64,000 nt of DNA from Owenia fusiformis (lineage: Eukaryota > Annelida > Polychaeta > Sabellida > Oweniidae), in contig CAIIXF020000006.1 of NCBI GenBank assembly GCA_903813345.2, positions 15,072,348 through 15,136,347 on the forward strand. Direction: 5' to 3'. Shown here piece after piece: positions 24,071 to 57,055 of the stretch (positions are counted from its first letter, which is position 1; every line of letters begins with the position of its first letter). The position numbers were made by a program, and so were the translations under genes. A model generated the notes under the pieces. It ran no database searches. It was not told where the DNA came from and saw nothing but the letters and a program-made list of their open reading frames with translations.

Positions 24071-25987
24071 GCTGTTCACTTCTCCGTTTGAGAGCCATAA
24101 GTTTCAAAATCTAACATGGCTCTCGAAGTGAGTAAGCGTATCCCATCTTACGTTCTGTTGTCAGGTGCGACAATGGCTTCGTATTCTGTACCATTACATT
24201 TTATTTTAATCTATGTAGTATTCTACGAGAAAAATAAGTTTTGTCATCAAATACGTCTGCTACTTTTATTAGACATTAATGCAAAAACAATCATCGTTGT
24301 AGACTGTTTTTTCAGAAAAATCCATGAATTTGATTTTTAAATCAGAATTAACTAAAATTCAGTGTTTAAATATATATACGTTCGATTAGATTGCCATTCC
24401 CAAAAAATGCTACAAAGCTGCAAAAGATTTAGCACATTTTTATATTTACGACATGATTCATGCCACGTGTCTAAACTGGTTCGACTCGTGAAGTACAATA
24501 TTTTCTATATTAGCGCCTGCCTGTCCACCCGCAAACCCAACAGAAGATGATAATTGTTAGCACTTTTTTATACGATAAAGTTCACAATGATCATGCTTTT
24601 AGTGAGATATACTGTATATTGATCATCAGCGAAGTACTCCAGCGCTCCAATACTTACACGGATTGATGATACTGATGTAAGACACAGTTAGAGACCAAAA
24701 GTAAGCCGTGGATCGACTTAATTCGATTTCAAAGGTCACTATTGATCAGCTGTTCACTTCTCCGTTTGAGAGCCATAAGTTTCAAAATCTAACATGGCTC
24801 TCGAAGTGAGTAAGCGTATCCCATCTTACGTTCTGTTGTCAGGTGCGACAATGGCTTCGTATTCTGTACCATTACATTTTATTTTAATCTATGTAGTATT
24901 CTACGAGAAAAATAAGTTTTGTCATCAAATACGTCTGCTACTTTTATTAGACATTAATGCAAAAACAATCATCGTTGTAGACTGTTTTTTCAGAAAAATC
25001 CATGAATTTGATTTTTAAATCAGAATTAACTAAAATTCAGTGTTTAAATATATATACGTTCGATTAGATTGCCATTCCCAAAAAATGCTACAAAGCTGCA
25101 AAAGATTTAGCACATTTTTATATTTACGACATGATTCATGCCACGTGTCTAAACTGGTTCGACTCGTGAAGTACAATATTTTCTATATTAGCGCCTGCCT
25201 GTCCACCCGCAAACCCAACAGAAGATGATAATTGTTAGCACTTTTTTATACGATAAAGTTCACAATGATCATGCTTTTAGTGAGATATACTGTATATTGA
25301 TCATCAGCGAAGTACTCCAGCGCTCCAATACTTACACGGATTGATGATACTGATGTAAGACACAGTTAGAGACCAAAAGTAAGCCGTGGATCGACTTAAT
25401 TCGATTTCAAAGGTCACTATTGATCAGCTGTTCACTTCTCCGTTTGAGAGCCATAAGTTTCAAAATCTAACATGGCTCTCGAAGTGAGTAAGCGTATCCC
25501 ATCTTACGTTCTGTTGTCAGGTGCGACAATGGCTTCGTATTCTGTACCATTACATTTTATTTTAATCTATGTAGTATTCTACGAGAAAAATAAGTTTTGT
25601 CATTAAATACGTCTGCTACTTTTATTAGACATTAATGCAAAAACAATCATCGTTGTAGACTGTTTTTTCAGAAAAATCCATGAATTTGATTTTTAAATCA
25701 GAATTAACTAAAATTCAGTGTTTAAATATATATACGTTCGATTAGATTGCCATTCCCAAAAAATGCTACAAAGCTGCAAAAGATTTAGCACATTTTTATA
25801 TTTACGACATGATTCATGCCACGTGTCTAAACTGGTTCGACTCGTGAAGTACAATATTTTCTATATTAGCGCCTGCCTGTCCACCCGCAAACTCAACAGA
25901 AGATGATAATTGTTAGCACTTTTTTATACGATAAAGTTCACAATGATCATGCTTTTAGTGAGATATACTGTATATTGATCATCAGCG
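23954..25987. repeat. Tandem array, three copies of a 678-bp unit
   Basis: Units start GAAGTACTCCAGCGCTCCAA at about 23954, 24632 and 25310. They are almost identical; the third has single-base changes, such as CATCAAATACG to CATTAAATACG, which closes a 74-codon frame. High identity indicates very recent amplification. No domain was seen in the repeated frames. Confidence 0.9.
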
Positions 25988-34689: not shown

Positions 34690-35000
34690 TATTGAATGAT
34701 TTGAAGTGCAATACAGGATATATTCTGTTCGAGAAATTCCGTATTGGAACGAGACGAAGTCGAGTGCCAATACAGAATATCGAGACAGAATATATCCTGT
34801 ATTGCACTTCAAATCATTCAATAACGTTTTTATCGTGTTATCCTCTGTATTATTGCTACTGAGATTGTCTCCTCCGTACCAATATTTTCTGTATTGCGAC
34901 GGAGATGATCAACGCGGACAATCTCAGTAGCAATACAGATTGGTACAGCACAAGAACTGACCAATCAGAGGGCTTCATTTTACAGATCATGCGATAAATT
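34690..35000. repeat. Dispersed palindromic repeat, also at 28850-29060 and 46985-47290
   Basis: ATGATTTGAAGTGCAATACA is followed about 100 bp later by its inverted copy. Then come ACCAATATTTTCTGTATTGC and its near-inverse AGCAATACAGATTGGTAC. The relative at 46985-47290 directly abuts the 5' end of the LINE. Confidence 0.7.
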
Positions 35001-37880: not shown

Positions 37881-38305
37881 TATAACATGCATGCGAAATC
37901 ATATTTGCATACAAGAACAGTAAGGTACATTATTTCAATCAATTGTAATTTCAACTTAGTCAAAGGGGAACAGTTTTCACCACTCCGAGCACTAATATTT
38001 AAGCCAAGACTGTCAAAAAGCTACTCCCATGGGCGAAAACCCCTCCCCTTGGTAAAAGCTGGTCACGGGCAAGGAACACTATTTTAAGGCACCAATGGTG
38101 TTATGCTTACACAGGTTTAACTGTAATTTGGTTTAGAGTTAAATGGAATTGCACCTTTAATTAAACATTCCATTGTGACAAAAATACATCAAAACAGCCC
38201 GTATGTTCTTAACCACTGTTTTATCTTGCCTTACTTCGAATGAAGTGATTTTAACAGTTTTGTGACACATACAGCTCCTCATCGTACTATATTCTAGTGT
38301 CAATT

Positions 38306-38413
38306 TTAAAATTCATCATGGGGTCGAGTCAAGGCATCACCAAAGTCTGTAGCTTGACTGCCAACAAAGAGATCATATTTGTTCATGATTTCCTGTTTTG
38401 AGAGCTTTTTGTC
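38306..38413 (-). CDS. CALU: Calumenin terminal exon H2
   Basis: Acceptor TTTTCCAG, phase 0. It encodes [20 protein letters not shown], then [15 protein letters not shown] and TAA. EF6 loop position 6 is lysine instead of the usual glycine, and position 11 is glutamine. The HDEF end is kept. Sequence after the stop resembles that after H1, so the duplication included part of the 3' UTR. Confidence 0.82.
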
Positions 38414-41400
38414 CTGGAAAAGATGAAATGTTAACATGAATTTAGTGGAGATGTCTTGTTATTAGTATATGAGGGGACGTGATGGGATAACACTACAGTG
38501 TTCACGAAACAAAGCTTGTGTGTTCACTATGCACAGCTTATGTGTTCACTATGGAAAGCTTATATATGTTCACTATACAAAGCTTATGTGTTCACTATGC
38601 ACAGCTTATGTGTTCACTATGGAAAGCTTATGTGTTCACTATGCAAAGCTTATGTGTTCACTATGCAAAGCTTATGTGTTCACTATACAAAGTTTATGTG
38701 TTCACTATACACTATACCATCAGCTTTATGTCACTTTATATGAGACTGCTGAAAATTAGTACACAGCCGAATTATCTCTTCCATGTCATGACTTTTTCTA
38801 AAAGCTGTAGCAGTTCTCATTTTATTTCAGGATAATCCTTCAATTTTTAAGGTTATCTAGTAAAAGATTTTAAAGTGGACGTCCTCTTTTTCAATTCTGA
38901 CAAATTTCTTCTATTTTTCAGAAATTACAATTAGGATAATAAGGGGAACGTGGATGCTTTTTGAAACGATCTCTTCCAACAGTTTACACACTCTGATCTG
39001 TGACTCTATTCCTTCTACTGTAATGGCTTAATAATAATTTCTGTACGGTACGTGAACACCCCCCCCCTTCCCCAATTTTTCCTGGCCCTTTCTGCAAGTA
39101 AGTCTACACGATTTATTAAAGATGAAATACTGAACGAGACCCTTCCTTTTGATGTACATACCCTGTCACTGTCAGCATGATCAAATAGATGAGCCACTTC
39201 ACCCTGTATGTGATCATAATCGTCAGGCATTATCCAGGCCTTGACCTCTGCTAAATCTAAGAACCCATTTTTGTCCTTATCACGCTCTTCTCTGAATGAC
39301 ACTCTCTCTTGGGCTACCCAGTCTGGTTCATCGGCGCCTTCGCCTCCTTCAACGTGGGAGTACATGTCACCTAGTAGAGTTAGTATAGGGATAAGTTAAC
39401 TTTCACATATTGATTTATTGTATTTTCCCAAATAAGGTTCTTGGCTCTTGAATTAAAGTGAGGCCTAAATATTTGTTATTCCTCATGAAAATTACCAATA
39501 CTTTAAAAATACCATCAGTAAATTGTCCAGTGGGAGTTTATTAGAAAACTTTCCTTGAGAAAATTTACTTGCAATAAATAAATCATATTCCAACAGGGCC
39601 AGCTTTTTCATTTTTGTTTTTGTTTCACCCAGACCTAATGAAAATTCATTTTGAATCAACTAAGGGCTATAAAAATACATTTTTGAGAAAATCTGGTAGT
39701 TTGCATTTTAAAAGTGACAATATACCATATTTTAATACCATGTAAAGGCAGGCCAGTATAAAAATATATATTATATACAGTCGCTGGGCTAACAATGGAT
39801 TTCTACTTGGGTAAGTGGAGAAAACTTTTACATTTTGAAAACAAACACAATCATATCTTTATGATAAACTATTTATTTTATTTTAAAATGTTACGATTCT
39901 TTTACGATACACTATTCAGTTCAACCAATAAAGATTAAAGAGAAAAAAGGATTTCAAAACTTTATAAAATGCTTTTTATAATATAACATGATAACTGATC
40001 AAGAATAGTATACACATGTTAATTTTCAATTAAACATAGAATGGCTCCAATTGAACCCTGAAACTTCTTCCAATTTCAATCTAAGACTAGTTCTACACTA
40101 TATCTACTATCTACAATTCAGCACTATAATTTAGCACAACCAAAAGCTTAGCACTACATTGTAGCACAACAAATGGCACAGCACTATAATGTAGCAAAAC
40201 CAAAAGCTCAGCACTATATGATTAATGGCTACAATTTACCTAAATATATAAATGATTTAAACATGGGACCTGATAAAACTGTTTAATGATAACATTATCA
40301 GCAGGTACTATACCATAGTATAGGGTGTCCAATAAGTCTCTTAACACTTTAAGAGATTTTGTATTATAATTGTAAGAAACTTTATGAACACCCTGTATTA
40401 TCTATGATAAGTCTAAGTACTAAGTTTGTTGAATAATTGGTGATATCTGGTGAGATAAAATAATTTATAATATTTCTGTAACTTGCATATAAAACGTTCT
40501 ACCCAACAATACAATGTACATGTACACAAAACTACTATTCAAGACAAGACTAGACTTATTGCTTATTTGTTCAAATAAAGTTTCAACATTAGTAAGTAAA
40601 CATTCAACTTTCCCAAACATCAAGAATGCTTAAACTTGGCATTTTCTTGGCAAATTAATTCCCAAATGTGGATTTCTAATTTGGATACAAACTAATTTCA
40701 ACTCCATCTATTTCAGTCATCTTGAAAAAATCTAGTCCAATTCATAATTTTTAGAATTACAAAATCTCAATTTGGTTAATATCATGAACTATTGCTTGCC
40801 TTTTGTCATTCTGATTCCTCGTAAAACCAAGATAGGCCAGTTCAAAATATCTGACTAGATATTTTTAAAACACATCTTATCACTAGTAAATGTGTGGTTT
40901 TAAAGCCGATAATGGATTTTTCAATTCTCAGTATTTTCAATTTACGGAACACAAGACATTAACTCACAAAATACATGCAAAATAACACAAAAAATATGGA
41001 TCTAATCTGATACTTGGAGGGCTTGTTCAGTTTTTCAGATTAAGTACATATTATATGCAGCAAAAGCAATATTCGGTAGTACATACATAATACTGAAAAA
41101 TATATATTAATTTTATGTCTACACTATTTGTATTACTTAATATTGTGAATTTGTACGTTTTAGCTCATACATATAAATTGCATTTATAGTTTAAATATTC
41201 AGATGATAACGGTTCTGAATAATATGTACATTTCCAAAACCCTGCCTTGAGTAAATAATTTCAGTACCTTAATGAAGAATGATATTATGTCAATTTAAAA
41301 TACTTTTTGATATGAGAATTCTTAAAATATTTTATGTATACAATTTATACAACATGTATTATTCTGCATATGTATTTTCAATCACACTTAGCTGCTTTTA

Positions 41401-44400
41401 GGCCACAGTGTTTAATTCTCCGATTCAAACAGTTTAAATATTGATGTATGAAACAAAACAAATCACAAGGCCTACATTGTATTGGACACACTGAATCAAA
41501 ATGATGATTTCCAGTACATTGTACTAATAAATACATGTTATTGATTTTAATTTAATGCACTATAACCACATGCATGTATTACTTGATCTATTGTACAATA
41601 GGAATCATTAAGCATTAGATAAGTACATATCTTTTTTTCATTAAATATTCCTAATTTAACCATTTAAAGCTCATTATATGTTTAACGTCGAATTTTCAGA
41701 GATACGAATCACCAATACAAATCACGATTGAAAATTGTGATCTACGACCATATTATAGTGACGGAGGTTTCTGGATTGAAAATTACATGTATTTCAATTT
41801 CCTGATTCTTTTCATGAAAAAGTTTATGCAAAATCAAGGATTGTATCATTTTATGAGTCATCTTTTTATGATCTATTACATTTGGTATTGTATAACATAA
41901 TACAAATCCCAATAAGAAAAATTATAAAGATTCTTTCACCCTCTGAATATTTTGGCCCACAACAGGACGTTGAACATATAATCAACTTTAAATGGCCTTC
42001 ATTCACTAGGATTTGTTCACTAATTCTACGTGTATAGCACCTCTCTGGTTAATATCCTCATTTTATAATTTAAAGTTGCTCTTAATACTCAGGTCCTATT
42101 GATATTGTTTGTGTTCTTAAAACCACTGTTTTGTCATGACTTAGGTTAATTTTTCTTTCAACAGTTGTGTGTTTCTATTTGTCTTTTGGCATCTACGGCT
42201 GTAAATTAGACTCTAGTGTCACTTTCCAAGTTAAAATTCATCGTGACGAGTCAAGGCTTCCCCAAAGTCTGTAGCTTGACTGCCGACAAAGACATCATAT
42301 TTGTCTAAAATTTCCTCCTTTGTGAGTTTACCATCCTGGAATAGAGAATTCAAATGCTGTTATTTACTTGGAAATGTTATGTATCAACTCAATTTAAAAT
42401 CTCATAACAAATTTGAAATTATTTACATTTTTTGGTATGATACTTAAGGATGTTCCCTGGTCAGATAGGAAAATATTCAATAGTATTTAACTTTTTCTCA
42501 AAAATGGTTTTCTGGGATTCTCACGGGCAACAAAGAATATTAAAACTTTAAAAACCATATGTTAGTGTGCTTTTTTCTGAGCAAGAGGCCTCTAAAGTGT
42601 CAATATTTGACAAAAGTGGGCGTGGCACTTTCTCATTGAAACCCATGTTAAAAATCAGGTTTTCACCCCAAAACACACTTTTGAATATTTAACTTTTTCT
42701 TAAACTCACAGAAACACTTAGTTATGCTATGTACTTCACATTTTTAAAAGAAAAATTAGGGGTTGGTGTTCATCGTTTTCAACTTCGTCCAGGGAACATC
42801 CTTAAAGGCTATACATAAATATTCAATTGAATTCAAATAACTTACATGTACACATATAAAGCATACACATTAAAATACATCTTATCTACATTAACTTACA
42901 TACCACTTTATTATTCAACACATAATAACCCTTAACCAACACTTAATTTATTACATATACATGTCAAAGAAGACTGGTGGTACTTAAACATAAGTAGTAT
43001 CTCATTTCTTTTTCTCATTATACAGGAAATAAATTTTCCAGAGCTGCAGACATACCGCATCTTCGTCAGATTCAGCGATGAGATGTCTAGCCTCAGCCTC
43101 AGAGTGGTCATAATCTGGGGGAATGATCCACTCTTTCACTTCGTCATGGTCCATATGACCATCCTTATCCTTATCACGGAAGCTTGTGAACTGTTCTCGT
43201 TCTGTTTTTACCCATTCTGGCTCTTCTTCATCCTCCCTGTTTGGCCACATATCACCTAGCAACAGCCAATCAGATTCAAGCTTATATAACCATAAACCAA
43301 TCACAAGAAAGCTTACATATAGGTTTATAACATATAAAATGCCCATCACCATGGTTTCAACACCCCAAATCCTCAGAATCCCTACAAGAATATCATAACT
43401 TTTATTAGGGACAAAAATAAGAAAAGTGGAACATGAAGTATACCTACAAAATATATATAGAACTGAATGACAATATATATTCTCAAGCATTTGTTTATAT
43501 ACAATGAGAATTGGATAACTTTAAGAAAATGTTTCACTAAAATCACTCACTTTTGACAAATATTTCATCTTTTCTAAAAATATATATTGCCTTCATGTTC
43601 CAAAGTGGAGGACAACATTTAGGACCAGCATCCACCAATACAACTTCTACAATATTTTGGGAGATTTCATCACCTTCAGGAGACAACATTCATGGGGACC
43701 CTTCTTCCTGGTGTACATATCTGTACCTACCCCATCTTTATCAGCGCTGTCAATAAGATGTGTAACTTCGCCCATGATATGATCATAATCATCAGGCATT
43801 ATCCAGTTTTTGACCTCTTCAAAATCTAGCAATCCATCCTTATTCTTATCATGGTCTTCTTTGAAGGCCTCTCTCTCTGATTCTACCCAGTCTGGTTCCT
43901 CAGTCCCTTCCTTGCTTGGATGCATGTCACCTAGTAGTGTTATTGTAGGGACAGTTTTGACATTGATTCTATATATTTTACAGTGAACATCATTCTGATG
44001 TTATCAATTGTGAAGAGGTACAAGTACATCACCTTATCATTTGTATTGAATAAACCTAAGCAGTTGGTACATTTCTACATCATTTATGTTACTCAGCATG
44101 CAAACATCATCAAAGAAAATGTGCAGCAGATACCTATCGCATTCTTCAATGGAACACAAAAAGAGACATGATACGCACATGGACATGACATGCACCAGTA
44201 ATAAAAAAAACTGCAGCCAATTGGCCAAAACTATTGGCAATCTTCACTTCTCTTCTTCACAAGGCCCAAGGGTGTGATGTACATTGTTTATATGATTAGA
44301 AGCCAATAGAGAAATAAGAAAAGCGAATGAGTAGAGAGGAGAAAAAGTTCATGATGCAATTCACTATAGAAACAGACAAAACACCTTTAAGTTCATGATG

Positions 44401-47400
44401 TAAATATCCCCTTTTCCTATCTTACATCTATTCTTGAACCATAAAATATACGCAAGTTCTCTCAATGATGGACATACAGTAAGAAGTGTGTAACAGTGAA
44501 TAGAGTATGAAAAGAACACCAGGATTAAATGGTATACTTTAGAAAGTATATGGGCTCTTGCGCCCAGTTATGTAGTGAAGAATCAAGCATGGTGAATAAA
44601 TTTTGAAAATTAAAAAAAATGTGTAATCCCCAATGTAATCACCAGGCTTTATTCTAATGAAAGCAAGAGGCAGAAATAACCAAGAATTCATATATGAACC
44701 TATCCCCATGGTTCTTAGGTTCATCTTTACATGGAGATAATTTCATCTCTGAATTCTGGGTTAATCTATCCAAAATGTTAATTTTCAAAGATTTGAATAG
44801 CCCATTGTTTTCATGCCTTTTCTCACTTTATAAGGCAAATGAATTTCCAGGAAGAGGAAATTTTTTTTCAAATTCCGAGAATCCGAGTGAGAGTGAGCGC
44901 AGTTGGCTCAATGCTAGAGTATTCCTTCACGTAAAGAAAAGTATTTTTGACAACAGTTGGGTCAAACTGGAAATTGAATAGAGTTTTATGATGCATTTTA
45001 TCCCCTAGAACTCCAGTTCAAATGACTTGCTATAAGAAGTACATTTCAGTTAATTCATGCCATTAAGATATACCCATGCATATATTTTATTTCATATCTT
45101 TTCATTAAACGCATACAAATATTACATAGAGCAAGAGTTGACAGACAAAAAGTGCCAATATGCCCATCATAGCTATAATAGAGAATCAGACAAAAACTGG
45201 TAAAATTTGAAAAATCTAGATAGTTTCAAAGAGGTAGTTCCATTCTTGCAATCTCTACTGAGAATATATAAGTCACCTTACAGAATAAAGAATTACAACT
45301 TCGTAAAAGTATGAAGAAGAATCAATACATGAACAATGTGTTATTAGTACATCCTTTTTCTATGCTACAAATCATCCAACCTGATCAAATTATAAACACC
45401 ATATATGTACATATTGCATTAATATTTTAATAATAAGTTTGTCTCGAAAATGTACAATTTGAGACTTTATTATCAGTAACACAATAAAACACCTAATTCT
45501 AATTAGTTAGTGAAAGAGGTTGACAATTTACCTAGTCTCATTCTGACTACTAACAGGATGATCGTTAATGTGTACCCAGGCCCATAGCCAAGGAGTCCTT
45601 TCAAAATAATGCAGTTTTCACGTTTCTAAGCATTTTTCATGTGATTTTGGGCCAAATTTGTCAAGGTGAACCCCCCTGAAGTTTTTCTGAAAAGTGAACC
45701 CATGCCCTTGGTAAAAGCTGGCTATGGGCCTGGTACCAATTCAATTGACAGCTAAGTAAATTGTATTTTCTCTTCTAAACCCTTCAATTGGTTTCATTTA
45801 TAACTGAGGTATATAATATATCCTGTCCACCTCTGGTGAGGTCAACAATTGTATACTGCAGTGTCGCTTGTATAATAAATGCGTACTTACCTATATATTC
45901 TGCTAAGCTAATTTTTCCATCTTTATCTTTGTCAATATCTTCTATGGTTTCCTGGGAATAGAAGAAACAAATGTTTAATTTTTGAAAAAATGTTAAACAT
46001 AAATAAATCTTAAACAAAGTGTCCTGTATGTGTAGTGAGGGAAATGGTTCACAAGAGACTGAGTCAGTTTGGTAAAAATTAAAATGAATGAATTTATATT
46101 AAGTGTTCAGATTTGAGTTAATTTCTTAAAGCAAATAAAATTATGGACAATTTTTGGTTGCAACTATAATACTGTTATAGTCTTTTAAAATCTCCTGGTA
46201 GCAAGACTAATAAGATCTGAGATTACTTTTCTTTTTTAATTTTTGTTATAAAAAGAGATGCATACCTCAACAACAATATCTCTCATGTGTGGTGCTTCTT
46301 CTGGGTGCAAGAAATCAGCAAATTCCTCCTGGTCTAAAGCTCCATCACCATTTTTGTCAGCCCTCTCAAATCGTCGCTCATCTCTTTTGATCATATCTTT
46401 ATAATTGTAAGATTCACTGTCTTCTTCTGCATTCATGTCTTGGTCTAGAATTGATTAGAAAGTTCATAGTGAATGACATTGTATATTGATATTGTGTTGA
46501 ATTGGTTGTCTACATTTTTGGTTGATTCATATAAGTATGGAGTCTTACACCTGTTGATGTTTGTACAGTAACATTGTCCAATTGTAATCCTAAGATACAA
46601 AGCCTTTGTGCATGGGCATTAACTTTAATTAAAGAAATCACATCAAAGGCGGTATATTGAAAGGAGTGATATGTGACAAGTAGTCATAAAAGCATTTAGT
46701 CACAATTGAACTAATTCCTTGCTTCGGTTGCATATACAGTAAAACCTGTCTCATCCTAACACCACTCAGACCAGGCAAAAGTGTTCAGATTGACAGGTGC
46801 TCATATTTCAAGGATTTTTTATACATGAGTCAATGATAGCGTATAAAATTGGAACTAAAAAACTTCACATTAAGAGGTGTTCAGATTAGAGAGGTGTTCA
46901 TATATATACAGGTTCCACTGCACTAGCAATCACAAAGATGCTTTGTAATTACTCTGACAGTGAGCTCCTGTAGCAGATATTATGAGTTGTTGAATGATTT
47001 GAAGCGCAATACAGGTAATCTCCTCGAGAAATTCCGTATTGGAACGAGACAAAGTAAAGTGCCATACAGAATATCGAGACATCTAATATATCCTGTATTG
47101 CACTTCAAATCATTCTATAACGTTTTTATTGTGTGATCCTCTGTATTGAGAATGTCCCCTCCGTACCAATATTTTCTGTATTGCGACAGAGATGATCAAT
47201 GGGGACAATCTCAGTAGCAATACAGATTGGTACGGCACAAGAACTGACCAATTAGAAGGCTTCATTTTACAGATCATACGATAATAGCCTAAATAGCACA
47301 AATTAATTGGGTACTAATTGCAATATACAGTTTTTCATCATTTTAACTACTGACAATTTGAAGTCCTGGTACTCATGAGTCCTGAGACATCATATTTAAA

Positions 47401-50317
47401 ATCTGGAAATGAGCTTAATAACCATCTCCAAAGTCTGGGTTTTTCGCAGTTAATTGACCAACCAACTCGCGTCACAAATAGAAGCCAATCCTGCATTGAT
47501 CTTCTTATTACTAATCAACCAAATCTTATATCCTCTTCAAATGTTACACCTCCAATCGGAAATACTGACCACAGCACTCTAGTCTGTACCTCATTTATTG
47601 GTACAGTAAAGGAACTGCCATACATTTGGTCATATTCCGAGGCTGATGTTCAAAATATCAACGACTCAATTAGAAATTCAAAACTTGATCAACTTATTGA
47701 AAATTCATATGATATGGACATGTTATGTGATCAATTTACTAACCAACTCTACCAAATATTTACTAATACCATTCCAAATAAACTTATAAAGGTCCGGAGC
47801 AATGATAAACCATGGTTCAAGCCTCACATTAAAACACTAATTAATAAACGGAATCGTCTACATTTCAAATACCGCCACAACAACAATCAAGAACGCTATC
47901 AAAAGTACATTGACCAGTGTGATATTGTTAACGAGGAAATAACAAAGGCCAAACTTGAGTATGAATCACACATGTATGAGAAATTAAACTCCCTTAAATA
48001 TGGCAGCAAGTCTTACTGGTCGGTCATATCTAAACTTTTATTCAAAACTAAAGTTGTTAGGATTCCTATTTTGACCAACCAAAACGGCTCTTCTATACTC
48101 ACCAGCACAGAAAAGGCTAATTTATTTCTTGACCATTTCATCAAAAATTTTCATTCTGATCATAACATAGATACAGACAGTGTTCAATTTGACCTTAGAA
48201 CTGATTCTTTTTTAAATATCCTTTCAACAAATGACAGAGAGATTTATGAAATTCTTTTATCACTCGATGTTAGCAAAGCTTTAGGTCCTGACAAACTAAG
48301 TAATAAAATGCTCAAGTTAGCAGCCCCATCTTTATCAAAATTATTTTCAAAATTTCTCAATAAGATGTTTGAAATGAGAAAATTTCCTAATTCCTGGAAA
48401 CTAGGGAATATTATCCCATGCCATAAAAAAAGTGACAAAAATCTTGTTTCTAATTACCGTCCAATAACTCTATTAAGCTGCCTTTCAAAGGTAGCCGAGA
48501 GAGTTATTTTTAAAAGGATGTTTGACCATTTGCTAACAAACAATCTTCTATTTAATTTTCAAAGTGGATTTCTCCCAGGTCACAGTACACAACACCAACT
48601 ACTAAGTATTCTTGATTTTTTAACTTCTAATATGGATAATGGTAATGATGTTCGTGCAGTCTTTCTTGATATATCGGCCGCCTTCGATACTTTACCCCAT
48701 AAGCTATTATTTAAGAAGCTACATGCATACGGTTTTGGTCCAAATATAATGCTACTTATTGAATCTTATCTTACCAATCGAAAAGTAAGAGTGCTTATTG
48801 ACGGTCACGAGTCTCCATGGTCAGCCAGCGACTATATCAATTCGGGAGTTCCCCAGGGGTCCATCTTAGGACCTCTGCTATTCTTAGTTTACATAAACGA
48901 TTTACCTGATGATATTTTAAGCAAGTGTTTTCTGTATGCAGATGACACTTCTCTTTATCAGCCCTTCAGCCATGATAATATGCCTGAATGTATAAACACC
49001 CTCCAATCTGATCTAAATTCTATAAACAATTGGTCTGATAAATGGCAATTAAAATTCAAACCCTCTAAAAGTGATGATCTGACATTTAGTAGTCCAAAAA
49101 AGAATGAAATAATAACCCCTGACCTAAAATTGGGAACTGAATCCATACCTAGGTGTGCTTCGCATAAACACCTTGGCTTTATCCTTGACTCTAAATTATC
49201 TTTCAATTTCCACATTACTCATCTTGCAAAGAAAATTGATAAGCTTTTAAATCTACTTAAAGCATTAAGTAAAAAACTTAGTGGAAACCATCTAAATCTT
49301 ATGTTCAAATCTTTTATCTTACCACATTTTGATTTCTGCGACATCCTCTATGGATGTGCAGATATTTCCAAATTAAAACGCATTGACCAACTCTACTACA
49401 AGGCAGCTCTGATTTGTAGTGGAACTATTCATGGGTCATCTTCTGAAAAGGTGCTCAATATTCTAAATTGGCCTAAACTAGAGATGAGGAGGAAGTTTCA
49501 TCGACTAACCCTCATGTTCAATGTCCAAAATCAGAAAGTTCCTTCATATGTTCAAAACATATTTGATAAATATAAGAGACAACAACCTCCTCTCTATTTG
49601 AGAAATCCAACTGAATTTGTCTTGCCCGCTAAAAGATCTGTGATATTAAAGAAAACATGCATTTTTACTGCTATCTCAGAATGGAACAAACTACCCCAAC
49701 AACTCCAAGAGATAGACAATTTAGGTACTTTCAAATCTAAATTGACACTTCTCATTTATCCAGAACCTATCATATCATCTACCTCATTGCATTTACCTAG
49801 ACCAGAGGAAATCAGTCTTAATAGGACTAGAGTCGACTTGATTTTTCAATCTCATTTTCATGCCCACAACTTTACTCTAGCTGATACACCAAAATGTAAG
49901 TGTGGATTCAAAAGTGAAACATCCAAGCATGTCATCTTTAACTGCAGACTCCGTAGGACCCTCCTAACTGACTTCGAAATTAAACTAAATAACCTTGAAA
50001 TCCAATATAAAAAGAATTTTAAGACCCAACAAGAGAAATTGAATTTCTTTCTTTTTGGCAGCTCAAAACTTAACTACGCTACAAACATAACTGTTCTTGA
50101 AACTAGTGCCTCTTTTCTCCAGAAGTGTGTAAGTGTCTGAGTGTTAGCAGCAATTATCAAACCTTCTATGCTTAATTTATTCACCAATTTGCTTCACCAA
50201 TTCGATTGTTTTTTGAAATAAAATTTTATAATTAACCCTGCGACTTATAATGTTAAACAAAGTCGCCTTTTTGGAAATTTTCTTTTTACATATATTATTG
50301 TATTAAATAAAACATGA

Positions 50318-50369
<52 letters not shown>

Positions 50370-53300
50370 TTAAAACACTAGAAATACACTGCTAGACGTA
50401 CTAGCGAGGTTATTTCTTGTGTTACGTTCCACCAACTAAAACTTTTTTCAGAAACTGATAGCAAGCACCTTATGCTCAATTTAAACCCAAAAGTCCAGTA
50501 TGCACAGAATAGAACCTTCCCCCTTGCAGAACAGCAACATATATTACACATAACACACTAACATAAACAGATAATATGATCCCTTTCTCTTCCACTGTAC
50601 CCCTACGAATAATTTTTACCATAACCAGACTTAAACCACAAGAATACATTGAGATATTTTCTATCTCATACAAAAAGACACTTCCTACACGGAGACACCT
50701 TCTACATGAAGACATCTACACAGAGACACATCATACACAGAAGCACCTCATAACCAGAGACACCTCATAAACAGAGACACCTCATGTAGAAAACCCTCCT
50801 ATATAGATACACCACTCAGTCCATAAAGATTATATAAGGAGAGAACTCATGTGTAGAGATACCTCCTAAATAGTGGTACCTCCCACATCGACAATAGACA
50901 TGTACTTAAAACATTACCATAGTTCAGCTTATTTTCCCACCTTAGCCCAATTTTCTGGCATTAACGTTTTGAGTTTTAACTACATGTCTGTCAACTACAC
51001 GTCTCTCTTCATTGTATCACAACATTTATTTTGCTTAAGAAAACCTCAAGTCCCATGCCTATAACACATTTTCATTACTCTCTTCAATCGGATCATCATC
51101 CTTCCTAACATATGTGCCTTTGTATTTAGCCCATTCATCTCCATAATTATTCTCCATGTAAATGTCCTTGGTTATTAGAGTCTCTGTTCTTCCCTCCATC
51201 ATGCCCTTCCACTCTTCTCTGGTATTTATCATATCAGACATACGTGACACATGCCTAATCCACGCATCTAACTCGCTTACATTGACAAATCCATCAGAAT
51301 CTTTGTCTATTTTATTTGTTATGATATCACTGCAATGAAGTGAGTAATAATATAAGGTGAGAAAATGAAGATTTTAAAGTTGTTTAAGCAAGACAGGACA
51401 TCTGGAAGCCAAATTTACAAGCATTGTATGATCATGTAAAATATTTTGGAGAATACATGTATTATAATACATAGAAGACAGAAAGCAAACAGTTGAGCCT
51501 TCAATGACCCGCTTGCTCTTAGCAAAGTGACTGTACAATTCTACTTCAAAGAGAGAACAAACTGACAGCTCATTTTACAACGTATTAGACAAGAAGACAT
51601 TAAATATTTCTAGCTAGATGCCATTCCTCAGCATACAGTTATACCACTGGGACAGATTGAAGAACCCCATCACATCCAATTATATACAACAATGCACTGT
51701 CATTTAACCAGCCCTGTTACAAATATATACAGTTTTTAAGTCAGACATATAGTACAGCAACACAACACTCAAATAAAATGCAAATATATTTCAGAGGTGC
51801 ATTTCTTTTAATGTTTCAAGAGGCATATGCTAATTCTAGCTAGACATCCCGAAAAATCACCAAAACAACAGCAAAAGCCTTACCATCTAAGAAGCCATAA
51901 GTTCTCTTTTTGTAAGCTTCCCAGACAAGCTTATTATCGGCAAGTTCACTTTGAAGCTCTTTCCACTGTTTATCTGCATCATTTTGAATGTAGCGATTTT
52001 GAACATATTTGATCCAGACTTTCAGTTCATCTTCTGTGACGAGGCCATCATTATCTTTATCAATCTTTTCTACAATTTTGCTGCAATGTGATTTACAACA
52101 TTCAATAGACCGGTTTTAAGTAGATATGTATAGAAACAGAAACATGTCAATTAGGGGTACCACAAGAAATGATATACAATAGTGATGCATCATTGCTCCC
52201 ATCATTTGAAGCACCTTGTGAGAGTTGTATAGGTACCGATGATCCATGTATTGTGATACCCCTAATGTCAACTTATGCTTATAAAATGTCCTGTTGGCCT
52301 TTTTTGTTTCAAAAATAATATTTCTAGTGTCTTTTCTTCTAGTTTTATGTGTACTTGAGCATGTCATTTCTTTATTTTTGAAATTTCTAAGACTTCCATA
52401 TTTTGGATATGACTTTCAAGACATTTCATATTCATAACCATCCTTTCCTTCATAAAATGCCCACATTTATATAGTTACATACATGTACATTTATTTTTAA
52501 GTTAAACGAACACTAAACGAGCAGTTTCAGAATTCCACCACCTTAAAACCTCAAGAAACCACAAATACACACAAAGAGAATATGTACATGGACATGTTTC
52601 ATAAGTTTTTTCAATTGTTATATATCTGTCAGCAATTGATTTACCTCAGAGATCTACAAAATATTTGTACCGTAGTTTTGAGAGAAAATAGAAGAAAACC
52701 TTGAACCAATTTCTTTAATCTCCAATTTCACCTACCCAAGTCTCATTTTGCTCTCTTCTGGTGTGAGTTCATCAAATGATTTTGCTTCCTCCTTCCCAAG
52801 GAATGCTTCATGATCATAGTCTGGGTTGTGTTCATCATCTGGATTGTGTTCTACATCACTGAGATCCTATATAAGATAACAATACATGTATACATGTATA
52901 TTATGACATGTATATTTTGATAACATATAATTCATTAACCTTTTGCAGGATAGCTTAGGGATGCATGAAGGATATAAGTAAATATTGTAAAATTTTTCAG
53001 GCACACAACTTCTACAATTTTATTTTTATCTTATTTTATTTGAGATTTAAAATTTTTAAAAACACAGTTCAATGAATCAATATTGATCATTTTATCACTG
53101 GCATTTTGATACAAATCTTGTTTATTTGAGATTTAAATTTTAAAAATACACTTCATTATAAAATATTGATTCTAAAAAATACCCTGATGCGTCATTGTGA
53201 ATTTGCAACTTTTAAAAAAATTAAGAATCATTAAATGGGGAATTACCATATGTTTTAATACTTTGGTGAAATAATTTTGATTTTAGAAATCCCACCCTTG

Positions 53301-56300
53301 TAATAAATACGAACTAGACCATTACACTGCATTATATGCAAAATTGGTATCTTAGCAGAATATGGCCATCATTATTGAAAGCTGTAATTCTAAAGGATAC
53401 TGATGAGGGGCAACAAGGCCCACAGAGAGAAAATTTGATTTTTTTTACTCTGGGCTATCAGGTCAACATCAGGCTTAACATTAACCAAACCCATCTGGCC
53501 CAGTAATCTTCTCCCGATTCTGAATTGTCGTAGATCTAGGGCCAGACAAGGTCCAATGCAAAAAAGGGGGTATTTACTCCGGAAAAAACATGTCGCTGAA
53601 TCATCACTTATTATTCATTCCCTATTAGCCATCCAACCAAAACATCAGGTACCATGTAAACCCAAGTATTTATTTGAAATAAAGAGAACATAACTTATGC
53701 GTAAATGTGGTGTTTTGTTTGTTATATTGATGTTGAAATGGGCACAACATTTCGTCAATATTTCGTCAGTTCTCCGCACCGAATAAAGTCACGTGATGTG
53801 ACGTAACACGAGTGTGACGCGATAATTTTTAAACTTTCATGGAACGAAAATACATTTCCCGGGAATCAATACATTCCAAGTATTACGATTTGTTCAGCAG
53901 ATTTGTTATCAAAACGTAGATTACTTTATAAAACAGACGTGTCTGTGTTGTATTTAAACTGGAAAGAAATATGGTGGACATTAAATACGATTTTTCAATT
54001 TGTTGAACTGACGGAATGTAGTACTGAACGAAATAAGCAGCCGAGACTTCTCGATATTTTACGAGATCACGAACAGATTGCAGAAGAATTTTTCTTTTTG
54101 CTGCGTTTAGACGTTTCGTTCTTATTTATTAGCCGTCATCCAGCGATGGAAACCTAATATAAATACAAAGTTTGATACAAGGAACAAACACGTAAGTGAT
54201 TTTTATGATGTTTATTCATTTATCAGCACGTATTATACATTGAAAAACCAGTGTGTTCTTTCCGGAGTAAATACCCCATTTTTTGCATTGGATCGAGTCT
54301 GGCCCAGATCTACGACTCAGGAGTAGATAACTGGGCCAGACGGGTTTGGTTAGCTTAACATCTTCTTTGACATACCTATTTTCTTAAAATGTATGGATAA
54401 CTATCAATTTCAGCATTAAGAAGTGTAAAATAAGTTCAAAGTTTCTATAAAGGGAGTCCCACTTATAGATTTTTAAGATCCACCAGGGGGTTTCTTTATA
54501 GATTATAATAAAAATTATGTAGCATCCAAATTAAACCCCCAGTGGCTACAGGCATGTTAAACATAATAAGGGTTTTATTTTTTATATCATTAATTATTAA
54601 ATCATGAGCTTTCAAAAAATGCCATGCATGAAGCAGCAAATGACAGTAATAGTAATAATGACTTTTTTGCACTAATCATTTTAAATCCACGTAGCTATAA
54701 TCAATTGGCTGCTTCGGTTGAAAACACACATCATCAAACCAGAAACATTCATCATTAATAACTGTTTATTCAGTGGTTTATTTCAGTTTGCTATTATCAT
54801 TTAATTATGTATACTAACTACTAAATCAAACCATACATATTTCAACGTATAAACCATTGTTAAAATTATCATGCATTTATCAGACAAAAAAAATGAAATG
54901 AAGTTGCAAATTAATAACGAAAATGTATTGGATCTGTATATTCTTCCTTTTTTATGGAAGTCTTATTTCAATAAAATATTCTGTTCACTACACCAGATAA
55001 TCTTTATGCCTTAATGTTGCCATTTTCAGGATTTTCACTGGGATTACAAAGTTATAACCATTAAGCATTTTCTCCAAATATAACAACATCTAAGTGTAAG
55101 GTAAGCTGTGACAACCCTATTATGACATCACGCCTCCCATGCTTGGCTTTAGGAAATATATCTCACTAATAAAATCATACATTTATGTTCTTACATCCTT
55201 CTTCAAAGGACTTCATTTATGCTTATGGAAAAAAGTGAAATATCCTTGGACCAAGGATGACGTTCTTACCTTATTCAATACTCTGTCTTTATGTTCATCT
55301 GGTTTTGGAATAGCTGATGAGAAGGAGGTAGAAACACAAAGCAAGACTAGGCACCCGACATACACCTTCATTGTGTTAGTTTGGGAGAACATCTAGTATG
55401 ATCTACAAAAGCCAACAAACTAGTATTAAATAACATAACTTGTGCAATGTATGAATGAAAATGAGGGAGGCTTGAGTGAAATGTTTTGAAACATGCTGAA
55501 TCGCCATACTCTGACTCCATACCCCAGGGTCCATACCCTAAATTGCTGAAGTGAGAATCCAATAGAATAAATTCACTTTGAACTAGTATCATGATGTTGA
55601 AATAAGAATTTGTAGCTTATAAAATGTTATCAAACATACTGAACCCGGTCTCTTATACCTTATGTTATTGAACCTGTTATAGACCTAATCTCGATATATA
55701 CCCCCCCCCCCCCAATTATACCAATTAGCACAAATGTACTCAATGAACATGTGTTATTTGACCTCTGTGCCAGATTTAGGGAATATAATCAAAAGTGAAG
55801 TGATAGTACTATGAAAGGTAACCTCTCACTATAACAACCTCAATGTGCAGCCACAAATATCAACAATTTCCTGTTTCAAGGAAATTCCAATAATTCCACT
55901 GTCATAAATTTTTTTTTCATAATCACATTAATGGAATCCAGTTTTAAGTAGACTTAAATATCAATATATTATTTGCAGAGAATTTTGACAGATGCCCTGA
56001 TCAAAGCTATGAAGATGGCTTTAATAAAGCTCCTAAAAATGATGAAAATATGAACTTCATCATTCTACGGGCAAGAAAACGGAGTCCTTAGCATCATGTT
56101 TCTGGAAGTCCTCTAAAATGAATTTGGACAAAAACCTGTTAATTGAACGTTTTGTTTTTATATTGCTTCATTAAAAAATTCTATTCATTATTTTCATCAA
56201 AGTTCCTTTCAATCAATTACTGCTTTAAGACCTGCTAACGAATATTTATATGATCAACTGATAAAGTAAACAGAGAATATGCTAATGCACATGCCCGACC

Positions 56301-57055
56301 AACCTATATTTATTATGCTTGAACTGGAGGTGTGAAAACTGAGAGCTTATAAATAATTTATAAAGATAAGTAAATGGGAAACAGGGTATCTATGGTATCC
56401 TTATGAGTGGAATTCTATACTATGTGTATCCGTAAAATCCACCAAGATAAAATGTGTTGTCAGTGTTCTCAGTTCTGAGATACTGCTGGTGAGGTGTAGG
56501 TGGTGTCACAATGCCCGAAGCCATAAAAGGTTCAAAGCAATGTTAAGACATTAACTAAATTTAATGGCTTTTAATTTTGGCATAAATACATTATCTATTG
56601 ATTTGCCTTGAACAAAGATAGATATTTGGCTATGATGGCTTAATAATGAATTCTTCCATCCAAACCTGCAAATCTTGCCTTGAGGGGTGGGGGAGGCGAG
56701 GGCCAAATGATTTCCTAAGATGTGAGACATTTAATCAGATATGTGAAGTAGAGAAATTGTGATGAAATAATAAACTGGGAATAGCATAATCATTTCATGA
56801 GCAACATGCTAAAATTAACTGGATTTTAAAGACAGTCTAACAAACGAGCGCCAAGATGCATCTAAAATAAAAAAGATCCAGGTCATGCTGACATACTTTC
56901 TCCTGAACCCTAGTCTTATTTTCAGCGTTATCCCCTGCTGGTGTTTCAGAATCATTATCGCTGTCATTTTTTTCCTCTGAGATTGGGACAACAGCAGAGT
57001 GCATGGGATGAACACTCAGCAACCAGCATATCAAAATAACTTGCCACCTCCTCAT
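38306..57055 (-). CDS. CALU: Calumenin, multi-isoform EF-hand protein of the secretory pathway
   Basis: CREC-family calcium-binding protein of the ER/secretory lumen. The canonical chain uses exons 55371-55270 (signal peptide), 52866-52736, 52080-51884, 46444-46266, 45951-45891, 43255-43056 and 42335-42231. The joined frame is 975 nt, 324 residues; human calumenin is about 315. EF-hand loops are at residues 85-96 ([12 protein letters not shown]), 173-184 ([12 protein letters not shown]), 210-221 ([12 protein letters not shown]), 251-262 ([12 protein letters not shown]) and 287-298 ([12 protein letters not shown]). The EF2 position is degenerate. The chain ends [23 protein letters not shown] is the calumenin-type ER-retention signal. 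Extra exons, annotated separately, are an alternative first exon, an alternative EF1 exon, two alternative EF5/6 exons and a second terminal exon. All phases match. Family assignment is secure; isoform use is inferred. Confidence 0.9.
38500..38712. repeat. 22-bp minisatellite in the intron before calumenin exon H2
   Basis: About ten imperfect copies of AGCTTATGTGTTCACTATGC plus two bases. The period is not a multiple of three and the unit has no stop in any forward frame, so three overlapping frames of 81-105 codons appear. These are artefacts of the repeat. Confidence 0.85.
39162..39370 (-). CDS. CALU: Calumenin alternative EF5/6 exon G3
   Basis: 209 nt, three codons longer than G1 and G2, same phases (donor GTATGT). 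It encodes [18 protein letters not shown], the EF5 loop [12 protein letters not shown] and [13 protein letters not shown], and ends DSDR at EF6 loop position 4. It can join only to terminal exon H2. With H2 it forms a duplicated 3' module of the gene. Confidence 0.78.
39371..42230. other. Calumenin intron and H1 3' UTR, no further exon seen
   Basis: AT-rich. The part just below 42231 resembles the sequence after the H2 stop (for example CTTAA.CCACTGTTTT.TC near 42115 and 38209). A short inverted pair (TAGGGTGTCCAATAAGTC and its partner ACACCCTGTATTA) at 40320-40400 is a small decayed element. Confidence 0.5.
42231..42335 (-). CDS. CALU: Calumenin terminal exon H1
   Basis: Acceptor ATTCCAG, phase 0. 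It encodes [20 protein letters not shown], then [14 protein letters not shown] and TAA. It supplies EF6 loop positions 5-12 with glycine at position 6, and the HDEF retention signal. G1 or G2 can splice to it; G3 lies downstream and cannot. Confidence 0.86.
42448..42801. mobile_element. Small element with TTAA target duplication, 354 bp
   Basis: Ends GGATGTTCCCTGG and CCAGGGAACATCC are exactly inverted and flanked by TTAA at 42444-42447 and 42802-42805. A TTAA target is typical of piggyBac-group elements. It sits in the calumenin intron between exons G2 and H1. Confidence 0.75.
43056..43255 (-). CDS. CALU: Calumenin EF5/6 exon G2 (canonical version)
   Basis: 200 nt, phase 1 in, phase 0 out (donor GTATGT). 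It encodes [13 protein letters not shown], the EF5 loop [12 protein letters not shown] and [19 protein letters not shown]. This is the closest of the three to vertebrate calumenin ([26 protein letters not shown]). It ends at loop position 4 of EF6. Confidence 0.85.
43731..43930 (-). CDS. CALU: Calumenin alternative EF5/6 exon G1
   Basis: 200 nt, phase 1 in, phase 0 out (donor GTAGGT). It encodes [15 protein letters not shown], the EF5 loop [12 protein letters not shown] and IMPDDYDH, and ends with the first four positions of the EF6 loop (DKDG). It is most similar to exon G3, sharing IMPDDYDHI and the intron sequence just before the acceptor. G1 and G3 are therefore the more recent duplicates. 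Confidence 0.78.
43931..45577. other. Calumenin intron before exon G1, no feature recognised
   Basis: AT-rich intron. The frames at 43983-44981 lack splice context and domains. The bases just past G1 (TAGTGTTATTGTAGGGA) match those past G3, evidence of the exon duplication. Confidence 0.5.
45578..45733. mobile_element. Short inverted-repeat element, about 155 bp
   Basis: CAGGCCCATAGCC at the left is inverted at the right (GGCTATGGGCCTG). Related single ends occur near 13048 (CAGGCCCGTAGCC). It lies in the intron between calumenin exons F and G1. Confidence 0.6.
45891..45951 (-). CDS. CALU: Calumenin EF4 exon
   Basis: A 61-nt exon encoding [20 protein letters not shown] with a complete loop, [12 protein letters not shown]. 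The donor GTAAGT leaves phase 1. This is the branch point: its phase fits all three alternative EF5/6 exons, each of which begins GTGA(C/T)ATG and restores the glycine of YIGDM. Confidence 0.87.
46266..46444 (-). CDS. CALU: Calumenin EF3 exon
   Basis: 179 nt, phase 1 in, phase 0 out (donor GTATGC). It encodes [14 protein letters not shown], the CREC hallmark seen as FNYKQMMVRDERRF in vertebrates, then the EF loop [12 protein letters not shown] and FLHPEE. It is constitutive in every reconstructed isoform that continues past EF1. Confidence 0.87.
46735..46925. mobile_element. Short inverted-repeat element, about 190 bp
   Basis: ACAGTAAAACCTGT at the left and the inverted ACAGGTTCCACTG at the right bound a segment containing GTGTTCAGATT twice. 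It lies in the calumenin intron after alternative exon D. Confidence 0.5.
47355..50366 (+). mobile_element. 5'-truncated non-LTR (LINE) retrotransposon, Jockey/CR1-like
   Basis: Contains the 921-codon reverse transcriptase frame at 47375-50140, a short 3' UTR, AATAAA at 50306-50311 and a 33-base poly(A) tract at 50334-50366. The 5' end is lost inside the endonuclease domain: its C-terminal part (GNTDHST) remains but the N-terminal catalytic part is missing, with a stop at 47351 in the same frame. It lies in the calumenin intron between alternative exon D and the EF3 exon, in the opposite orientation, as is common for tolerated insertions. No target-site duplication could be identified. Confidence 0.9.
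47375..50140 (+). CDS. Reverse transcriptase of truncated LINE element
   Basis: A 921-codon open frame. Residues 1-70 are the end of an APE-type endonuclease ([20 protein letters not shown] and TDHS). The RT domain runs from about 300 to 560: [31 protein letters not shown] near 430-440, [11 protein letters not shown] near 490-500 and the catalytic YADD at 521-524. The C-terminus has a Cys/His cluster, CKCGF...KHVIFNC, near 841-857. The frame is intact, so insertion was recent or the copy is selected. The ATG is probably not the native start, because the element is truncated upstream. Confidence 0.92.
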   Translation: MSPETSYLKSGNELNNHLQSLGFSQLIDQPTRVTNRSQSCIDLLITNQPNLISSSNVTPPIGNTDHSTLVCTSFIGTVKELPYIWSYSEADVQNINDSIRNSKLDQLIENSYDMDMLCDQFTNQLYQIFTNTIPNKLIKVRSNDKPWFKPHIKTLINKRNRLHFKYRHNNNQERYQKYIDQCDIVNEEITKAKLEYESHMYEKLNSLKYGSKSYWSVISKLLFKTKVVRIPILTNQNGSSILTSTEKANLFLDHFIKNFHSDHNIDTDSVQFDLRTDSFLNILSTNDREIYEILLSLDVSKALGPDKLSNKMLKLAAPSLSKLFSKFLNKMFEMRKFPNSWKLGNIIPCHKKSDKNLVSNYRPITLLSCLSKVAERVIFKRMFDHLLTNNLLFNFQSGFLPGHSTQHQLLSILDFLTSNMDNGNDVRAVFLDISAAFDTLPHKLLFKKLHAYGFGPNIMLLIESYLTNRKVRVLIDGHESPWSASDYINSGVPQGSILGPLLFLVYINDLPDDILSKCFLYADDTSLYQPFSHDNMPECINTLQSDLNSINNWSDKWQLKFKPSKSDDLTFSSPKKNEIITPDLKLGTESIPRCASHKHLGFILDSKLSFNFHITHLAKKIDKLLNLLKALSKKLSGNHLNLMFKSFILPHFDFCDILYGCADISKLKRIDQLYYKAALICSGTIHGSSSEKVLNILNWPKLEMRRKFHRLTLMFNVQNQKVPSYVQNIFDKYKRQQPPLYLRNPTEFVLPAKRSVILKKTCIFTAISEWNKLPQQLQEIDNLGTFKSKLTLLIYPEPIISSTSLHLPRPEEISLNRTRVDLIFQSHFHAHNFTLADTPKCKCGFKSETSKHVIFNCRLRRTLLTDFEIKLNNLEIQYKKNFKTQQEKLNFFLFGSSKLNYATNITVLETSASFLQKCVSV
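50690..50900. repeat. Imperfect minisatellite of about 18-20 bp (GAGACACCTCATA-type)
   Basis: Repeated words ACAGAGACACCTCATA, with variants, run for about ten copies between the LINE and alternative calumenin exon D. Noncoding. Confidence 0.6.
51025..51030 (-). promoter_or_regulatory. AATAAA polyadenylation signal after alternative exon D
   Basis: A canonical AATAAA hexamer on the minus strand, about 30 bases past the TAG of alternative exon D. It supports, but does not prove, that exon D can be the last exon of a short calumenin transcript. Confidence 0.4.
51059..51329 (-). CDS. CALU: Calumenin alternative EF1 exon, version D (terminal or mutually exclusive)
   Basis: The acceptor TTGCAG enters in phase 2 exactly as version C does. 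It encodes [20 protein letters not shown], a full EF-hand loop, then a diverged segment ending [19 protein letters not shown]. Two outcomes are possible. Read through, it stops with TAG at 51059-51061, and an AATAAA signal lies at 51025-51030, giving a truncated protein of about 167 residues without HDEF. Alternatively, a weak donor GTAATG after 51079 leaves phase 1 and would join the common downstream exon in frame. It is clearly a paralogous exon; which use is real cannot be told from sequence. Confidence 0.6.
51330..52735. other. Calumenin introns around exon C, nothing further seen
   Basis: Intronic AT-rich sequence flanking the EF1 exon at 51884-52080. The 83-codon frame at 52116-52367 is unsupported. 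No complementary exon-pairing element could be identified by eye. Confidence 0.4.
51884..52080 (-). CDS. CALU: Calumenin EF1 exon, version C
   Basis: 197-nt exon, phase 2 in and phase 1 out (donor GTAAGG). It begins [19 protein letters not shown], a complete EF-hand loop, and ends [10 protein letters not shown]. The second loop position ([11 protein letters not shown]) has lost its usual calcium ligands. It joins to the exon starting QDMNAEED. It corresponds to the mutually exclusive EF1/EF2 exon of vertebrate CALU. Confidence 0.82.
52736..52866 (-). CDS. CALU: Calumenin constitutive exon (linker before EF1)
   Basis: Encodes [20 protein letters not shown], then [20 protein letters not shown] and MRLG. 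This is the conserved CREC stretch DYDHEAFLG...LTPEES, entered in phase 0 after ATATAG and left in phase 2 at GTAGGT. The phase-2 exit fits both alternative downstream EF1 exons. Confidence 0.85.
53482..54352. mobile_element. Mutator-like nonautonomous element, 871 bp, 9-bp target duplication
   Basis: Long inverted ends of about 105 bp start TAACCAAACCC and include GTCGTAGATCT and GGTATTTACTCCGGA. The flanking GCTTAACAT is exact on both sides (53473-53481 and 54353-54361). A 9-bp target and long inverted ends fit the Mutator superfamily. An 84-codon frame at 53903-54157 lies inside but has no transposase motif. Located in calumenin intron 1. Confidence 0.82.
55270..55371 (-). CDS. CALU: Calumenin proximal first exon, canonical signal peptide
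   Basis: A 34-codon exon. The signal peptide [20 protein letters not shown] is followed by [14 protein letters not shown]. The latter resembles the mature N-terminus of vertebrate calumenin (KPTEKKDRVHHE). The donor is GTAAGA, phase 0. This is the better match to known calumenins and probably the major start. Confidence 0.82.
55372..56896. other. Between the two calumenin first exons, no feature recognised
   Basis: This must hold the promoter of the proximal first exon if it has its own. No TATA box or clear motif could be assigned. A C-homopolymer lies near 55700. Confidence 0.4.
56897..57055 (-). CDS. CALU: Calumenin alternative first exon (distal), signal peptide plus acidic linker
   Basis: ATG opens a 53-codon exon. 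It has a hydrophobic leader ([10 protein letters not shown]) and an acidic, serine-rich linker ([17 protein letters not shown]), and ends NKTRVQEK at the donor GTATGT, phase 0. The end matches the proximal first exon (HKDRVLNK) in position and phase, so both can splice to the exon starting DLSDVEHN. It contains an N-glycosylation sequon, NKT. This version would give a 343-residue canonical-length protein. It implies an alternative promoter, or alternative splicing from a shared 5' UTR. Confidence 0.65.

Follow-up and report, generated by a model that had tools for sequence, protein, structure and literature searches.

The 3a/3b exon pair of vertebrate CALU encodes an EF1-type region. It appears in a published table as a tandem homologous pair regulated by U2AF (PMC5224494), and the available passages of that paper describe no triplication of an EF5/6 exon, no duplicated terminal exon and no EF1 copy ending in a stop in CALU. 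For human CALU, the available sections of PMC12516920 attribute isoforms 1-15 to alternative splicing and present two main forms, worded as two gene copies, which have exons 1 and 3-6 in common and differ in exon 2. The same sections describe a truncated product, Cab45-C, and a secreted product, Cab45-S, of SDF4/Cab45. Human genes with multiple clusters of mutually exclusive exons, and the Drosophila gene pip with eight tandem terminal-exon clusters, are described in the available text of PMC5740500 and PMC9013439, with 0 occurrences of CALU in the main text of each. EF-hand loops split between exons would permit new permutations if they were alternatively spliced, as stated in the part of PMC9177970 available.

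Here we describe a calumenin-type gene of Owenia fusiformis whose layout, judged from DNA, is best read as an elaboration of the exon swap known from vertebrate CALU. This single gene lies on the minus strand of a 64 kb stretch (the window). As with vertebrate CALU 3a/3b, from the same gene family, duplicated tandem exons would be chosen singly; in contrast to that pair, the EF5/6 exon is here triplicated, the terminal exon is duplicated and the EF1-type copy, exon D, runs to a stop. The locus resembles human CALU in the number of alternatively spliced products predicted, but its diversity would arise at the tail, where homologous exons are present in additional copies. With the multi-cluster genes it has in common tandem homologous exons, joint inclusion that breaks the frame and duplicated terminal exons, and it differs from them in that an internal and a terminal exon were apparently duplicated together. 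SDF4/Cab45, a CREC gene that also yields a truncated and a secreted product, offers a parallel to the D-ending form, although here the stop belongs to D, a duplicated exon of EF1 type. The parts of the open-access literature searched did not describe swapping of an EF5/6 or a terminal exon in calumenin; such isoforms may already be present in database gene models of other invertebrates. On balance, exon choice at three or four points would probably enable this one gene to make a family of ER-luminal calcium-binding proteins.

Exon borders were fixed and all exons were translated (Table 1). Eleven exons, all except D, have GT-AG borders and compatible phases and join in frame, among them the two first exons, three EF5/6 exons and two terminal exons of the original prediction. 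Its further statement that every exon has good splice sites and matching phases holds for these 11 and fails for D, which has no good exit; the donor of A is the weakest. In tblastn comparisons within the 64 kb, the copies match one another with E values of 2e-26 (G1 and G3), 7e-23 (G1 and G2), 6e-15 (H1 and H2) and 2e-9 (C and D), and their homology is far above chance. The same search with all 12 exons found no further exon copies in the window, with only matches of E 0.08 or worse outside the known exons, at a sensitivity that could overlook very short exons such as F. A weak match to exon C recurs three times at 24364-25818 with a spacing of 678 bases, which suggests a tandem repeat of ~678 bases, a period above the 500-base limit of the tandem-repeat finder.

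Table 1. Exons and 3' regions of the calumenin-type gene, with positions in the window; a slash marks the exon-intron border.
Feature	Position	Strand	Description
Exon A	57055-56897	minus	Alternative first coding exon; signal-peptide-like start, acidic linker; phase 0 out; donor AAA/GTATGT
Exon B	55392-55270	minus	First coding exon; signal-peptide-like start; phase 0 out; donor AAG/GTAAGA
Exon L	52866-52736	minus	N-terminal linker, common to all forms; phase 0 in, phase 2 out
Exon C	52080-51884	minus	EF1 and degenerate EF2; phase 2 in, phase 1 out
Exon D	51329-51059	minus	Second EF1-type exon; same entry phase as C; reads to stop
Exon E	46444-46266	minus	EF3, common to full-length forms
Exon F	45951-45891	minus	EF4, common; phase 1 out; joinable to G1, G2 or G3; donor TAG/GTAAGT
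Exon G1	43930-43731	minus	EF5 and first third of EF6 loop; 200 nt (3n+2)
Exon G2	43255-43056	minus	EF5 and first third of EF6 loop; 200 nt (3n+2)
Exon H1	42335-42231	minus	Remainder of EF6 loop, HDEF C-terminus, stop
Exon G3	39370-39162	minus	EF5 and first third of EF6 loop; 209 nt (3n+2); nearest to G1
Exon H2	38413-38306	minus	Remainder of EF6 loop, HDEF C-terminus, stop
H1 3' region, start	41931-42230	minus	Homologous to H2 3' region
H2 3' region, start	38006-38305	minus	Homologous to H1 3' region

The predicted protein has several features of a calumenin. Pfam EF-hand models match the spliced protein. Of the six EF-hand motifs typical of calumenins, five have loops that conform to the PROSITE EF-hand pattern given in the available part of PMC9177970, namely EF1 (in C and in D), EF3, EF4, EF5 (in all three G exons) and EF6; EF2 of C and of D has no match to it. 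Both A and B supply the hydrophobic start of a CREC-family signal sequence, as judged by a hydropathy threshold, and both H1 and H2 end in the retrieval signal HDEF. We enumerated 96 combinations of first exon, C or D, G and H, with D taken to end at its own stop, and 10 of the 96 give full-length reading frames: A or B, followed by C, followed by G1-H1, G2-H1, G1-H2, G2-H2 or G3-H2. By DNA structure there would be two short forms besides, ending in D and without HDEF. Up to 20 full-length products had been forecast; the sequence supports 10 instead, since D has no good donor and runs to a stop. Each G exon had also been thought joinable to H1 or H2, but G3 lies downstream of H1 and the G3-to-H1 junction is impossible in linear order.

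Donors were scored with a generic metazoan weight matrix and are expressed as the share of strand GTs that score equally well or better. Among nine exons scored, eight have donors within the best 0.3-2% of GTs, with that of B in the best 0.3%, and A is the weakest at 6.5%. Exon B also contains an internal ATG at 55371 that may be the actual start. If A were a spurious first exon, B alone would start the protein and, with the G and H copies genuine, five full-length forms would result. Consistent with such a reading are the weak donor of A and the frequency of signal-like phase-0 first exons, which the hydropathy threshold finds at seven places in the window including A and B, so that five others exist (seven rows in all; one repeat accounts for two of these places). 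We consider a spurious A unlikely: its phase is correct, it lies directly upstream of B and its last nine residues are, by inspection, identical to those of B at 5/9 positions. Its donor aside, exon A is credible, and promoter choice would set whether A or B begins the transcript. Near-identical signal-like open frames at 47265-47277 and 34978-34990 are apparently copies of one dispersed repeat.

Exon D aligns with C at 31% identity over 61 residues (tblastn) and has the acceptor and the correct entry phase, but it falls below the Pfam EF-hand cut-off (19.9 vs 25.4 bits). Its frame is open to a TAG stop at 51059, with AATAAA at 51030, and its protein end lacks HDEF. Two frame-compatible donors precede the stop, one at 51078 (AGA/GTAATG), whose score 23% of all strand GTs equal or exceed, and one at 51243 (CAC/GTATGT), for which this share is 6%. 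The latter is about as weak as the donor of A, and splicing from it would leave out the EF2 region. These borders do not make D the second complete EF1 exon, well spliced at its 3' side, that was first proposed. Judging by its stop, the single AATAAA and the weakness of its donors, D is probably an alternative terminal exon that gives a short protein without HDEF, which we hold likelier than an internal exon.

An internal D, mutually exclusive with C as in vertebrate CALU 3a/3b, would leave through 51078 or 51243 and restore up to 20 full-length products. The site at 51078 is in phase 1, would yield a full-length protein and would place D in the 3n+2 length class of C (251 vs 197 nt), while the site at 51243 likewise preserves the frame, with a score similar to that of the A donor; a regulated duplicated pair exists in vertebrate CALU, as the available passages of PMC5224494 describe. 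This arrangement seems somewhat unlikely to us, given that AGA/GTAATG lacks G at -1 and +5 and scores no better than so many other GTs, that the frame continues to a stop followed by AATAAA and that 51243 would drop EF2. With D as a terminal exon, splicing of L to C would let the gene continue, and splicing of L to D, which has a poly(A) signal close by, would bring an early end and a short form without the retrieval signal. The introns preceding C and D gave no sign of shared ancestry (188/300 shuffles were as good).

The G exons show several sequence hallmarks of a mutually exclusive cluster, namely homology, agreeing phases, similar length and frame incompatibility on joint inclusion. All three are entered in phase 1 and left in phase 0, and they are 50-62% identical in amino acids, G3 being 62% identical to G1 and 50% to G2; G2 is the G exon that we take to be most like vertebrate CALU. 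H1 lies between G2 and G3, so only G1 and G2 are adjacent in the strict sense. Each G exon is of 3n+2 length, and two together or none at all break the frame. In the B-C series, the stop falls 152 nt ahead of the final junction in double-G combinations (4/4) and 361 nt ahead of it in the one triple-G combination; skipping of all G exons gives a stop inside the last exon, 8 or 41 nt in. Nonsense-mediated decay follows a 50-nt rule, under which the joint-G stops at 152-361 nt would be expected to trigger it. F would join G1 or G2, mutually exclusively, and then H1, with frameshift and nonsense-mediated decay removing double inclusion. The G1-G2 intron, at 475 nt, would be too long for steric exclusion.

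Pairing between intron RNAs, of the docking/selector kind found in Dscam, was assessed at several levels of stringency. In a strict test of 10 intron pairs none stood out, and the best was equalled by 12/200 shuffles. Looser tests had paired the G2-H1 with the G3-H2 intron (0/40 and 0/200 shuffles as good) and, with 200 shuffles alone, the F-G1 intron with the stretch before G3 (5/200, against 18/40 in the other test), and neither signal was reproduced in the strict test. The looser 200-shuffle test is too permissive, since it allows near-global alignments, and we rely on the strict test; the looser signals were probably caused by a tandem array and base composition. We considered 25 of 39 listed inverted repeats as candidates for competing RNA structures, and Rfam gave 0 matches at gathering score. 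With no pairing signal in the strict test, frame incompatibility is the sole exclusion device for which we have evidence.

Selection on the copies was assessed by Nei-Gojobori counting with Jukes-Cantor correction in our own script. Differences between G1 and G3 (dN 0.24, dS 1.24) and between H1 and H2 (dN 0.12, dS 0.68) are mostly synonymous, with a dN/dS ratio of ~0.2 in both; synonymous change is saturated in G1-G2, G2-G3 and C-D. A model in which one copy evolves neutrally is rejected for G1-G3 (P 3.5e-12) and H1-H2 (P 1.8e-5), as the probability of the observed nonsynonymous differences or fewer; the corresponding probability for C-D is 2.6e-6 with dS = 2 by assumption. Intact frames are weaker evidence: in neutral simulations the frame stays open in 7% of cases for G1, 38% for H1 and 4% for the 65 codons of C. 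Judged against G2, G3 has 5 lineage-unique residues and G1 has 2, a non-significant difference, so G3 is not significantly faster. G1/G3 and H1/H2 therefore look to be under strong purifying selection, with both members of each pair apparently functional. As G3 and H2 show no first or middle exons of their own in the window, selection on them would be best explained by splicing to the shared upstream exons.

The G3-H2 block lies ~3 kb beyond the H1 stop, and the flanking DNA bears on its origin. Homology extends into the 3' regions of H1 and H2 (alignment score 231 against a shuffle mean of 164; 0/300 shuffles reach the score). Flanking introns, which should also be similar after a block duplication, show little, and this counts against it, with similarity between G1 and G3 equalled by 12/300 shuffles upstream and 13/300 downstream, and similarity upstream of G1 and G2 equalled by 20/300; in the intron before H1 and H2 no footprint of block duplication was found (101/300 shuffles as good). 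Weak or absent intron footprints could be expected at the synonymous divergence seen. The closeness of G3 to G1, together with the homologous H 3' regions, fits a duplication in tandem that took in the end of the gene, from a G1-type exon through H to the 3' UTR, after the G1/G2 split, followed by loss of the second G2. In this locus, then, one duplication event apparently copied an internal exon along with the terminal exon and 3' UTR that follow it.

A decaying G3-H2, a partial duplicate never or rarely spliced while only G1 or G2 with H1 are used, is an improbable alternative in our judgement. Its distance past the H1 stop, the lack of upstream exons of its own in the window and a 22-bp tandem array in its intron would accord with decay; the low dN/dS of G1-G3 and H1-H2, the rejection of one-copy neutrality and the preservation of open frames, splice borders and HDEF speak against it. 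A separate gene was also considered and rejected, as the window holds no other first or middle exons and the genome matches include no other CALU-type locus. Rather than a free combination of any G with any H, the 3' end is better seen as two putative terminal modules, one of G1 or G2 with H1 and the other of G3 with H2. F would, as the alternative to G1 or G2, skip H1 and join G3-H2. This needs read-through past H1 and would, in the manner of alternative last exons, be in competition with cleavage there. Candidate poly(A) signals after the H2 stop are ATTAAA at 145 nt and AATAAA at ~615 nt; after the H1 stop, ATTAAA occurs from ~680 nt and AATAAA only at ~2.3 kb, a distance that weighs against this scheme.

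Several other elements lie in these 3' parts. AAAACAGTGGTT is common to the H1 and H2 3' regions at matching places (42121-42132 and 38211-38222) and is a possible regulatory site. The 22-bp repeat in the G3-H2 intron (38498-38708) has 9.5 copies and lies ~85 nt before the H2 acceptor; it could differ in length among individuals and influence splicing. A 30-nt inverted repeat in the H1 3' region (41660-41995) has arms that are 90% complementary and 276 nt apart, and parts of it match C5 (75%) and C10 (79%) of the genome, so it may be a repeat element.

The proposed multiple-choice layout is present in the DNA at three positions (the 5' end, EF5/6 and the 3' end), with selection keeping the G and H copies; at the EF1 position it is doubtful on account of D. 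Residue 4 is the last of the EF6 loop to be encoded by a G exon, the rest coming from H, and the loop varies among G1, G2 and G3 at positions 2 and 4 and between H1 and H2 at positions 6 (Gly in H1, Lys in H2), 9 and 11. Choices of G and of H would therefore both alter the loop, probably tuning calcium binding by EF6. We tentatively suggest, as a possibility, that combinatorial splicing lets this single calumenin gene do the work that in vertebrates is divided among several CREC paralogues: the N-terminus would be set by the promoter used, D would give the short form without the retrieval signal, and G/H choice would rebuild EF5 and EF6, composing the EF6 loop from two chosen pieces and tuning calcium affinity per tissue or stage. 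If true, a luminal calcium-binding protein can be diversified inside one gene, down to a single EF-hand loop, in contrast to vertebrates, which use several CREC genes and one exon swap.

The spliced protein had 15 matches in the genome, of which 10 fall at the locus and the weaker remainder on contigs C1 (2), C486 (2) and C9 (1). Read by eye, the C1 paralogue has HDEL at its end, and a single exon encodes its EF5, EF6 and C-terminus, without the split; no second copy of this exon was seen within the 3.3 kb examined. Genome searches for further loci of the G3-H2 or D type found none (8 and 2 matches), and the 15, 8 and 2 matches include no high-identity multi-exon match of the kind expected of a retrocopy, sought as indirect proof of splicing. 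A genome-wide search for the EF-hand family (127 matches, 150/504 candidates scored) was too general for use. No relatives were confirmed among 26 pattern matches in viral contigs and 52 in bacterial or archaeal genome contigs. Among solved structures, the best 60 of 200 matches are calmodulins and calmodulin fusions. Equal-scoring EF-hand matches at C486:6534-6728 and 46719-46913, ~40 kb apart on a contig other than C1-C12, may reflect a gene duplication or an assembly artefact. Within the window, the D-E intron contains an antisense retrotransposon-like frame of 928 aa (47354-50140, plus strand) that encodes a reverse transcriptase domain (Pfam RVT_1, 2.2e-33); downstream of it, at 50324-50366, is a run of 43 A bases.
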